A DNA stretch of 34,617 bases, from positions 1 to 34,617 of the forward strand of contig DXDD01000011.1 of the NCBI GenBank assembly GCA_019115665.1, given 5' to 3'. This DNA comes from Candidatus Eisenbergiella pullistercoris. Lineage in GTDB: Bacteria > Bacillota > Clostridia > Lachnospirales > Lachnospiraceae. The notes beneath the pieces are model-generated. The model saw only the letters and a program-made list of their open reading frames with translations, was not told the DNA's origin and searched no databases. Made by a program: the position numbers and the translations under genes. Below are positions 10,957 to 27,976 of the stretch, in pieces; positions within the stretch are counted from its first letter, which is position 1, and every line of letters begins with the position of its first letter.

Positions 10957-11032
10957 GGCCGGATGCTTTTTTTCTGTACATTTTCGTACGGCCTGCGCAG
11001 TAAATGCGCAGACCTGTTCAAATAGCAGTTAC
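10957..11032 (-). mobile_element. Truncated, decayed copy (C) of the 135-bp MITE-like element
   Basis: Read on the minus strand this matches the left part of the element at 27792-27926. In order it shows a GTAACTGCTATT end, the GGTCTGCGCA-TTTAC-TGCGCAGGCC hairpin, GTACGAAAATGTACAG, and GCATCCGGCC, where similarity stops. The third hairpin and right end are missing. It lies 82 bp left of the 53-bp periodic array. Confidence 0.7.
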
Positions 11033-11113
11033 TTTTATGGGATGGAAAAATACTGCGGCTGATTCCTTTTTCATATCGGAAAATCCCTGCTCGCCCCCGC
11101 CAGGATGCTCCGA

Positions 11114-11424
11114 TACGGTTTAAAATGCGAATCTGCATTGTATAACCGTACAAAAAGTTTAAATTGACGGTTAAAAAAGGGATTTTCCGATCCTTAACCG
11201 TACTTTTTGACCACTATTTCATCACCAGTACGGATAAATACCTGATTTTCTCATCTGTAACCGTATTTTCGGCCTGTCGGGTACGGTTAAAAACAGACTT
11301 TTCGATCTTTTTACCGTATTACGCCATAAAAAGTACGGTTCAGAACAGCACTTTCCGGAATTGGATCCGTAAAAAATGAATTTTTGTACGGATGAAAATC
11401 CATTTTTTTCGTTTTTTAACCGTA
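11114..11424. repeat. Array 1: inverted TACGG/CCGTA pairs every 52-53 bp (one 63-bp step)
   Basis: AACCGTA-type boxes begin at 11144, 11196, 11259, 11312, 11365 and 11418 (steps 52, 63, 53, 53, 53). ACGG cores begin at 11115, 11167, 11230, 11283, 11335 and 11388 (steps 52, 63, 53, 52, 53). Each CCGTA is followed by an inverted TACGG whose first base is 20-21 bp downstream, except 31 bp in the long unit. Sequence between the boxes is largely diverged while the boxes are kept. No protein-coding frame fits the region. It ends about 320 bp before the recA -35 box. The nature of the array is unknown; binding sites for a DNA-bending or multimeric protein would fit. Confidence 0.8.
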
Positions 11425-11429
11425 AACGG

Positions 11430-11525
11430 GCGGAATGCTTCCGTGGGAGGTCTGCGGAATGCTTCCGTGGGAGGTCTGTGGAATGCTTCATGGAAGGCCT
11501 GTGGAATGCTTCCGTGGAAGAGCCT
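11430..11525 (+). repeat. Four tandem 24-bp repeats, each with a CGGAATGCTTCCG palindrome
   Basis: Units span 11430-11453, 11454-11477, 11478-11500 and 11501-11525 (24, 24, 23 and 25 bp). The first two are identical. Most carry the small palindrome CGGAA-TGC-TTCCG. A fifth partial start (GCGGAAG) follows at 11526. The repeats directly abut array 1 and lie upstream of the recA promoter. No function can be assigned. Confidence 0.85.
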
Positions 11526-11744
11526 GCGGAAGGTTTGTCTGTACAAATCCGCGGAGCATTTTGCCGAGTCCCCTGCCCTGTGAGCAGGAACGATACCGGC
11601 GGCCGGAGCGCCGTTTTCTTATAAAAACAGGTGGATTTCGGGGCGAAAACGTGATAAAATAAATCACATTCATTTTTCAGACAGCCGATTCATCTGGCAT
11701 TTTCAGTATCAGGGCGTTTCGCCGCTTTTTTTCCGGAAAGAGAA
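11526..11744. other. Non-coding stretch upstream of recA with weak hairpins
   Basis: No gene is visible. Two weak terminator-like structures are present: CGGCG/CGCCG (11597-11613) followed by TTTTCTT, and GGCG-TTT-CGCC followed by a run of T just before 11732. Either could insulate recA from upstream transcription. GTGAT-N7-ATCAC at about 11651-11667 is a short inverted repeat of unknown meaning. Confidence 0.4.
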
Positions 11745-11840: not shown

Positions 11841-12959
11841 ATGGAAAAGGAAGAAAAACTCAAGGCGCTGGAAGCGGCGCTTGGACAGATCGAGAAGCAG
11901 TATGGAAAAGGGGCTGTGATGAAGCTGGGGGATCCCTCTTCCCAGATGAACGTGGAGACCATTCCCACCGGTTCCCTCAGTCTGGATATCGCGCTTGGAC
12001 TGGGCGGCATTCCCAAGGGGAGGATCGTGGAGATCTATGGCCCGGAATCCAGCGGTAAGACGACGGTGACGCTCCACATGATCGCAGAGGTGCAGAAGAG
12101 GGGCGGAATCGCGGGCTTTATCGACGCGGAGCACGCGCTGGATCCCGTTTATGCGAAGAATATCGGCGTGGATATTGACAATCTGTATATTTCCCAGCCT
12201 GACAACGGGGAGCAGGCGCTGGAGATCACGGAGACGATGGTCCGCTCCGGCGCGATTGATATCATTGTTGTGGACTCCGTGGCGGCTCTGGTGCCGAAGG
12301 CGGAGATCGACGGCGACATGGGAGATTCCCATGTGGGACTGCAGGCGAGGCTGATGTCCCAGGCGCTGCGCAAGCTTACCGCCGTGATCAGCAAGTCGAA
12401 CTGCACCGTGATCTTCATCAATCAGCTGCGTGAGAAGGTGGGCGTGATGTTTGGAAATCCGGAGACGACGACCGGCGGACGCGCGCTCAAGTTCTATTCC
12501 ACCATCCGCCTCGATGTGCGGCGGATCGAGACGCTCAAGCAGGGCGGCGAGATGGTGGGAAACCGTACCCGCGTGAAGGTGGTGAAGAACAAGATCGCGC
12601 CGCCGTTCAAGGAAGCGGAATTCGACATCATGTTCGGAAAGGGGATTTCCAGAGAAGGAGATATACTGGATCTGGCGGTCGGCCTGAACATTGTCAACAA
12701 GAGCGGCGCATGGTTCGCCTATGAAGGGAACAAGATCGGCCAGGGAAGGGAAAATGCGAAGTCCTTCCTCGCGGATCATCCCGAGATCTGCGCGCAGATA
12801 GAACAGAAGGTAAGGGAGCACTATTTCTCCAGGCCGGAAGCGGCGGAAGGGGAACCGGCTGAAAAAGGGCAGGCCGAAAAGGGGCAGGCTGAAAAGAAAC
12901 AGGACGGGAAAGAGCAGGCTGAGAAGGGACAGACGCAGAAGGAGCCGGCAGAAGCATGA
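11841..12959 (+). CDS. recA: Recombinase RecA with a pentapeptide-repeat C-terminal tail
   Basis: RecA forms ATP-dependent filaments on single-stranded DNA, catalyses strand exchange and triggers LexA self-cleavage. The 372-residue protein has Walker A GPESSGKT (residues 67-74), the Walker B strand [15 protein letters not shown], the L2 region [20 protein letters not shown] and the usual C-terminal domain. Residues 340-372 are unusual: tandem five-residue units ([30 protein letters not shown]) replace the short acidic tail of most RecA proteins. The start at 11841 follows GGAGGAAGAG at ideal spacing; the in-frame TTG at 11745 lies in the promoter. The last four bases overlap recX. Confidence 0.97.
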
Positions 12960-27318: not shown

Positions 27319-27664
27319 CTCTGCGGCATACGGCAGCTCCTGCGGCAGAAATCAGAAGAATGGCATTCTGACCCGTAGAGATCGTGATCTCACTACGGCC
27401 AAAACAGGAAATTCCGCGTTTTGTACCGTAGATTTCAGTGGCCTTGTACGGTAGAAAATATAATTCTGTCATTTTTACCCGTAGTGAGAAGGGCTTTCCT
27501 ACGGTAGGAATCAGGAAAATTGTATTTTTACCCGTAGTGGGTGGGGAATTTCTACGGTAGGAATCAGGAAAATCAGATTTTTACCCGTAGTGAATGGCAA
27601 AATCCTGCGGCAGAAATCAGGGAAACCGCGTAACTGCCCGTAGTGAGAGGAATATCCCCACAGC
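27319..27664. repeat. Array 2: six (plus one partial) 53-bp tandem units with CCGTAG...CTACGG inverted pairs
   Basis: Unit starts (CCCGTAG or variant) are at 27372, 27425, 27478, 27531, 27584 and 27637, exactly 53 bp apart each time. A degenerate unit begins near 27319. Within units, CCGTAG occupies positions 2-7 and an inverted (C/G)T(A/G)CGG sits at 22-27; in the last unit the second arm has decayed. Units 3 and 4 are nearly identical outside the boxes (recent duplication), the others much less so. No coding frame is shared. The architecture equals that of the array at 11114-11424. Repeats are too diverged and lack spacers for a CRISPR. Confidence 0.88.
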
Positions 27665-27791: not shown

Positions 27792-27926
27792 GTTACTGTT
27801 CCTCCAGGTCTGCGCATTTACTGCGCAGACCGTACAAAAACGTACAGGAAGGAAGCATCCGGCCCATCGCGAAGCGATTGGAATGGCTGGATGCCGTTAC
27901 TGTTCTGCCGAAGGCTGAACAGTAAC
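27792..27926 (+). mobile_element. 135-bp MITE-like element, copy A
   Basis: The element starts GTTACTGTTC and ends GAACAGTAAC, a perfect 10-bp terminal inverted repeat. It is flanked by the 8-bp direct repeat GGAGCAGG (27784-27791 and 27927-27934), as expected for a target duplication. Inside are three hairpins: GGTCTGCGCA-TTTAC-TGCGCAGACC (27807-27831), GCATCCGGCC...GGCTGGATGC (27855-27894) and GTTACTGTTC-N11-GAACAGTAAC (27896-27926). No coding capacity. The 123 bp from 27805 to 27927 differ from copy B at only three positions. A transposase must act in trans; none is in the window. IS families with 8-bp duplications (IS66, IS6, ISL3 and others) are candidate parents, but I cannot choose. 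Confidence 0.85.
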
Positions 27927-27976
27927 GGAGCAGGAGGAAAGCCCTGGAAAAGCCCTGGAAAAGAACGAAAAAGTAT

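Follow-up and report, generated by a model that had tools for sequence, protein, structure and literature searches.

The DNA analysed, called the window here, is a 34,617-nucleotide stretch of Candidatus Eisenbergiella pullistercoris (contig DXDD01000011.1). It carries recA and, upstream of that gene, a regular array of short inverted boxes housed in a dispersed MITE-like element; a second array lies elsewhere in the window (Table 1). Six CCGTA boxes and six inverted ACGG cores had been read from the sequence alone, and both sets were recovered by script. The CCGTA boxes start at 11146, 11198, 11261, 11314, 11367 and 11420, in steps of 52, 63, 53, 53 and 53 bp, while the ACGG cores, which lie in TACGG boxes (starts 11114, 11229, 11282, 11334 and 11387) and in one variant, GACGG (11166), follow one another at 52, 63, 53, 52 and 53 bp. 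The distance from TACGG to CCGTA was 32-33 bp and that from CCGTA to TACGG 20-21 bp, with a single exception of 31 bp that accounts for the 63-bp step. There were no Rfam matches in the window at the gathering cut-off, and no tRNA gene was found in it.

Table 1. Features of the window and their coordinates.
Feature	Position	Strand	Evidence or remark
recA	11841..12959	+	begins 416 bp past the array; adjacent gene, considered outside the system
Dispersed MITE-like element bearing the recA-side array; left end GTTACTTTTATGGG, degenerate right end CCCTGTGAGCAGGAAC	about 11028..11591	.	DNA search and alignment of copies
Helically phased array made of 12 inverted boxes, TACGG/CCGTA with a single GACGG	11114..11424	.	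sequence reading and script
Variant box GACGG	11166..11170	-	retained as such in nearly all 27 copies aligned
CCGTA to TACGG at 31 bp, not 20-21 (one extra turn)	11198..11233	.	
24-bp tandem repeat GCGGAATGCTTCCGTGGAAGGCCT, right part of the MITE-like element	11430..11531	.	
Second array, CCGTAG-type boxes, 53-bp period	27373..27642	.	

Used as a DNA query, the region upstream of recA gave 58 matches in its own genome, itself included; 26 of the others were at least 290 bases long, many of them starting near the equivalent of window position 11028. The better-kept copies end in GTTACTTTTCA...TGAAAAGTAAC, which form terminal inverted repeats (seen in several among the copies listed; 30 were aligned). 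Target duplications read by eye measured 9 bp in one copy (L163) and 8 bp in another (L159) and were imperfect or unclear in other copies. The carrier of the recA-side array has the terminal inverted repeats and target duplications of a MITE, the right end being degenerate in the window copy, and the array itself is a dispersed copy spread by this element. Its position had suggested a special tie to recA, a proposal that failed when the recA loci of the genus were compared. Two species, G000 and G004, have the array ahead of the gene, whereas 10 of 10 other recA loci examined showed 0-2 boxes there (G009 yielded no recA). Because of this absence, and of the 26 long copies elsewhere in the genome, the array is not considered a feature of recA. 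That it is a dedicated control element of the gene, for which its presence in the two species could be cited, is scarcely credible, and the idea was dropped. The ORFs flanking 44 arrays were oriented ++ in 16 cases, -- in 6, -+ in 7 and +- in 7, with 8 arrays at ends; no orientation was preferred, and promoter-specific placement was also rejected.

The sequence-only reading had singled out the pair formed by CCGTA and an inverted TACGG, and a genome-wide search bore it out: CCGTA-N15/16-TACGG was found 223 times in the own genome and the reversed control pattern 7 times. A tandem three-box pattern occurred 207 and 199 times on the two strands, with 0 in the control. Among 12 other genomes of the genus, the pair was above control in three (G004, 164 vs 5; G009, 42 vs 5; G006, 21 vs 10) and marginally so in G005 (6 vs 3), but not in the remaining eight. 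When 397 Lachnospiraceae genomes were scanned, the three-box pattern was present at least once in 35 and at least five times over both strands in 18, the control reaching at most 2 per genome. A scan of named genomes with a 20-base pattern returned at least 98 stretches. Most of the 80 listed came from Lachnospiraceae or unresolved Clostridia, and the array-bearing records listed include Blautia sp. An81 and Drancourtella massiliensis An770. Five singletons outside Lachnospiraceae (L230, L234, L240, L254, L258) may be chance or coding repeats. A regular TACGG array was also seen in a record of Levyella massiliensis (L227), outside Lachnospiraceae, for which transfer and contamination are both possible. 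In viral contigs, no stretch matched the array pattern and no relative of the partner protein described below was confirmed; a phage origin was rejected on these grounds.

The proposal that boxes and geometry had been kept while the spacers diverged was borne out for the boxes by two comparisons. In 29 dispersed copies, the mean column majority was 0.995 in boxes and 0.884 in spacers (Mann-Whitney p 2e-16), as scored with box 6 set at 11262 for 11261, which swaps one spacer base and one box base. Orthologous arrays were then paired in order to part selection in place from copying. Twenty regions of G004 and its recA locus were matched to own-genome loci by flank similarity, 15 of the 21 were paired, and two pairs with non-homologous arrays (L413/window and L414/L060) were excluded, leaving 13; a position was scored as box if it lay in a box in either sequence. 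Identity was 693/706 (98.2%) in boxes vs 3078/3354 (91.8%) in spacers (Fisher p 1.6e-11), so that boxes changed about 4.5 times less than spacers, a difference to which gene conversion between copies may contribute.

A candidate protein partner emerged from the genes around the arrays. Clustering of 1303 ORFs under 56 genome labels, which may include one genome twice, gave a third cluster of 15 ORFs under 12 labels; two other clusters spanned more labels (24 and 13), and the first residues of the 13-label cluster suggest a transporter. Under 11 of the 12 labels the genes of the third cluster lay 25-119 bp from an array, which was always upstream, and the remaining one, under the twelfth label, is a 78-residue ORF at a distance of 2.9 kb. 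The family protein is about 264 residues long. In 69 sampled homologues (median pairwise identity 35%), the motifs RSKxE, PDF and EH were invariant and YxYE was also conserved. The E, D and E of the three invariant motifs, present in 69/69, are acidic residues of catalytic type that follow the motif pattern of the PD-(D/E)XK superfamily, and the C-terminus is predicted to form a PD-(D/E)XK-like nuclease domain.

Five of the proteins were scanned against Pfam and NCBIfam, and no model was reached at the curated cut-off in any of the five; the best sub-threshold match was DUF6376 (E 6e-4, one protein). The same scans gave no Pfam match to the HUH tyrosine transposase family (Y1_Tnp) and no ToxN/CptN/TenpN-type toxin in either collection. 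At these cut-offs, to judge by the five proteins, the family of about 264 residues is uncatalogued. The PADLOC models PDC-S68 and PDC-S69 have a homologous C-terminal nuclease domain. PDC-S68 was matched by 8/8 members (best E 1.2e-28), but its models are 1202-1273 residues long and the match covers only their end. PDC-S69, a 289-residue model, is nearer in size; it was matched by 7/8 members over about 130 residues, with a much weaker score (best E 9e-8). Matches in PHROGs were weak, some of them to entries named endonuclease or Holliday-junction resolvase. The best match by sequence among solved structures had an E value of 0.85, and a Foldseek search with a weak structure model (mean pLDDT 67.6, built with 6 alignment rows only) gave no PDB match at E <= 0.001.

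The family was found in 125 of 397 Lachnospiraceae genomes (E <= 1e-10). In a draw of 398 genomes from the phylum, 12 had a match, full-length only in Lachnospiraceae (5 genomes, the own genome included) and restricted to the C-terminal domain in the 7 others. The own genome has two copies of the gene, each beside an array, one with CCGTAC-type boxes (C126) and one with CCGTAG-type boxes (C167); the product of the latter matches only from model position 38 and may be truncated. These box types are similar to those of the genome's two main kinds of array: 30 of 40 arrays were C-majority and 8 G-majority, in a sample biased toward the C type. In 9 of 69 fetched partner-gene loci (L317, L321, L323, L326, L328, L329, L333, L338, L342), the C-terminus of rpsI was also present, hinting at an old shared locus. 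At one locus of an isolate genome (L123 in G385), the array-side partner gene is split by frame breaks and the array remains.

The linkage between gene and array was not confined to one box sequence. Periodicity was tested in the 560 bp upstream of 65 homologues, with 200 first-order shuffles each and a threshold of p < 0.01. Regions under 200 bp were left out, as was L385, a duplicate of L322 that was also left out of the 69-homologue and flank sets; L350, with a rounded p of 0.01, was not counted as significant. A significant period was found in 51 of the 65 regions and none in the other 14. The fundamental periods were 52 (6 regions), 53 (22), 54 (3), 62 (4), 64 (7), 71, 73, 74, 75, 83, 85 and 94 bp, with outliers at 26 and 45 bp, and 48 of the 51 were no more than 1.5 bp from n x 10.5. 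With the 51-55 bp class set aside, the proportion was 17/20, where the base rate is 0.32 (binomial p 1.5e-6, which overstates the evidence because the loci are related and some share a genome). Among the 24 of 69 homologues with 500 bp on both sides, 20 upstream regions were periodic vs 1 downstream. One homologue (L341) has its periodic region downstream of the gene and not upstream.

The upstream regions of 150 other genes, drawn from array-bearing loci, served as a control, and 36 of them also passed, with scattered periods, many of them multiples of 3 and seven at 51-54 bp. The shuffle null is therefore lax, so that quantisation, and not the p value alone, carries the argument. Periods of 10.0 and 10.5 bp could not be separated by R (0.73 vs 0.67 outside the 51-55 class) but only by zero phase. 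The claim that phase is kept in the recA-side array stood in part: most unit lengths found upstream of related genes are close to a multiple of 10.5 bp, but some of the phase signal within that array is due to tandem descent, and the comparison across loci is therefore the real evidence.

Single steps within arrays were less uniform. In the gene-linked array of C126, distances of 30, 21, 20, 20, 30, 30 and 42 bp alternate with the 32-33 bp steps. Of 24 unrelated non-canonical middle distances, five measured 22 bp, 10 measured 29-31 and two 42-43, the other seven being 25, 25, 26, 33, 34, 36 and 38; 7 of the 24 missed the phase by over 1.5 bp (25, 25, 26, 29, 34, 36, 38). These come from 31 rows hand-picked among the matches listed, with near-copies and several long or coding-like rows omitted, and one cluster merges 22 with 23. 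Nor did 10.5 bp stand out in a circular test of 67 mixed non-canonical single steps, where R was 0.41 at 10.5 and 0.52 at 11.5. Distance and polarity were counted in 51 upstream regions, a set that differs from the periodic 51 in that L355 and L377 are absent and L319 and L350 added. The median distance from array to gene was 61 bp, 39/51 arrays were A-rich on the gene strand, and GAAA exceeded TTTC in 35, with the reverse in 11 and ties in 5.

The letters of the boxes follow the lineage of the protein. The upstream pairs include TACGG/CCGTA, TACGTA, CCGACT/AGTCGG, GACACGCA/TGCGTGTC, GGGGCA/TGCCCC, GGGTAC/GTACCC and CAGCGG/CCGCTG, and box type clusters on the protein tree, with 8 changes against a shuffled mean of 15.2 and 0/500 shuffles as low (17 TACGG vs 48 other rows). 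If gene and array were partners, the box type beside the gene should foretell dispersed arrays in the same genome, as it did in both genomes tried (2/2). In G256, CCGACT-N20/24-AGTCGG gave 28 pairs on five contigs, 8 in the gene's own array and 20 away from it, mostly in 53-bp steps; in G271, ACACGC-N20/26-GCGTGT gave 22 pairs on three contigs, 8 in the gene's own array and 14 away, mostly in 52-53 bp steps. Each pattern occurred 0-1 times in each of 7 other genomes. The gene was detected in 14 of 18 genomes with strong TACGG arrays vs 111 of 379 others (Fisher p 5e-5), the 397 genomes of the array scan and of the gene scan being taken as one draw; in four array-rich genomes (G088, G099, G161, G364) no gene was detected.

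An array for a multimeric protein, as the sequence-only reading had supposed, is the best reading, because boxes and geometry are kept while spacers diverge and unit lengths lie mostly near multiples of 10.5 bp. The array would serve as a platform of double-stranded DNA whose partner protein is encoded at another place in the genome and is a member of the Lachnospiraceae family with a PD-(D/E)XK-like C-terminus whose cognate array mostly lies directly upstream of its gene. On the sequence comparisons given above, this putative nuclease-fold protein probably co-evolves with the phased arrays and binds them as adjacent protomers along a single face of the helix. Protomers would bind the inverted boxes 2, 3 or 4 turns apart and either assemble side by side or wrap the DNA. 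The protein would repress its own gene through the upstream array and would also occupy the dispersed arrays. Conservation of the active-site pattern points to a role for cutting or nicking at one stage or another, perhaps in defence or when arrays are amplified. A bolder version, unlikely in our estimation, has the phased arrays serving as an antitoxin or sensor at the DNA level, on which the nuclease, in active form, would be stored, kept silent and made to regulate itself; box specificity would diversify fast with the geometry fixed to whole turns, and the nuclease would be armed when invading DNA, damage or the loss of arrays released it. If the binding model is right, a major gut family has a protein-DNA pairing in which the letters of the site vary by lineage and the helical geometry is constant. 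Sequence recognition would be separated from assembly geometry, with many natural replicates in which to study each, and a large class of uncharacterised intergenic arrays would be explained and given a dedicated nuclease-like partner.

The nearest known organisation is the REPtron, outlined in PMC8266576 and PMC3733652 as a chromosomal RAYT (TnpAREP) gene beside its own palindromic REP/REPIN repeats, with dispersed copies and a repeat type that co-evolves with the protein. The array family is alike in three respects, 1) the gene adjoins cognate palindromic repeats, here on the upstream side, 2) cognate repeats are dispersed between genes of the same genome and 3) repeat type co-evolves with the protein. 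RAYTs, however, are HUH tyrosine transposases acting on single-stranded hairpins, whereas the array family has PD-(D/E)XK-like motifs; its repeats stand in tandem at spacings that are mostly whole turns, and nothing like the GTAG or CGTC tags reported in those two papers was recognised in them. Despite the like organisation, the two systems differ in enzyme superfamily and in phasing. The arrays might nevertheless be REPIN-like mobile repeats whose boxes are cut or nicked by the nuclease, amplifying and spreading them, with the phasing reflecting a synaptic complex and not a resident structure. The pairing of a gene with dispersed cognate repeats, the catalytic-type residues invariant in the 69 sampled homologues and the housing of the own-genome array type in a MITE-like element all fit such a scheme, as does the near-identity of units inside some arrays where the arrays at other loci of the genome have mainly their boxes in common, which is what local amplification would give. 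It is unlikely, however, since orthologous arrays keep their boxes in place, which pure spread does not need, the MITE ends can explain the spread in the own genome without a nuclease, and a simple scan gave no consistent ends around the arrays of other genera, only short matches taken as noise (an own-genome locus, L129, was the exception).

Tandem repeats directly upstream of a nuclease-like gene also recall the type III toxin-antitoxin systems ToxIN and CptIN, the latter reported in PMC4627078 from Eubacterium rectale, in the family's neighbourhood. The upstream repeats would then give rise, on transcription, to RNA hairpin units that keep the nuclease inhibited, with the inverted boxes forming stems; the short distance to the gene and the more frequent A-richness of the gene strand agree with this. 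But the antitoxin of the known systems is an RNA and their toxins belong to another family, and no toxin family was matched at the curated cut-off in the five proteins scanned. RNA units would not be expected to come in lengths quantised by whole turns, the strand polarity of the arrays is mixed, and arrays also lie far from the gene, in every gene orientation; an RNA antitoxin is very unlikely on this evidence. Neutral tandem duplication spread by a MITE, with box conservation and phase as by-products, would account for the many array units that are recent duplicates and for the unit order common to the own-genome copies. It is hardly tenable in view of the lower rate of box change in the 13 orthologous pairs, of a geometry kept in diverged lineages despite different letters, and of the upstream linkage of the arrays to one gene family.

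BIMEs and other helically arranged operator arrays are intergenic mosaics of inverted short units or phased sites for cooperative binding, and the present arrays resemble them in both respects; a dedicated PD-(D/E)XK protein that adjoins and co-evolves with them is not known to us. No description of an array paired with a nuclease-like gene was found in the open-licence PMC literature, as judged by titles and the starts of abstracts.

Other dispersed sequences lie close to the two arrays of the window. A palindromic element, CAGGTCTGCGCATTTACTGCGCAGACCGTAC..., occurs at 27797-27835 and 10984-11018 and in the flanks of several own-genome loci. A REP-like element with ends GTTACTGTTC...CAGCAGAACAGTAAC and a hairpin core CCATTCCAATCGC..GCGATTGG adjoins arrays at 27859-27928 and in the flanks of L170 and L174. 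At the intergenic site of the second array (27328-27642), where the own genome has CCGTAG-type boxes, the orthologous site in G004 (L413) holds a recA-type array element, and a short overlap at its left end (locus L190) suggests insertion into an older array.
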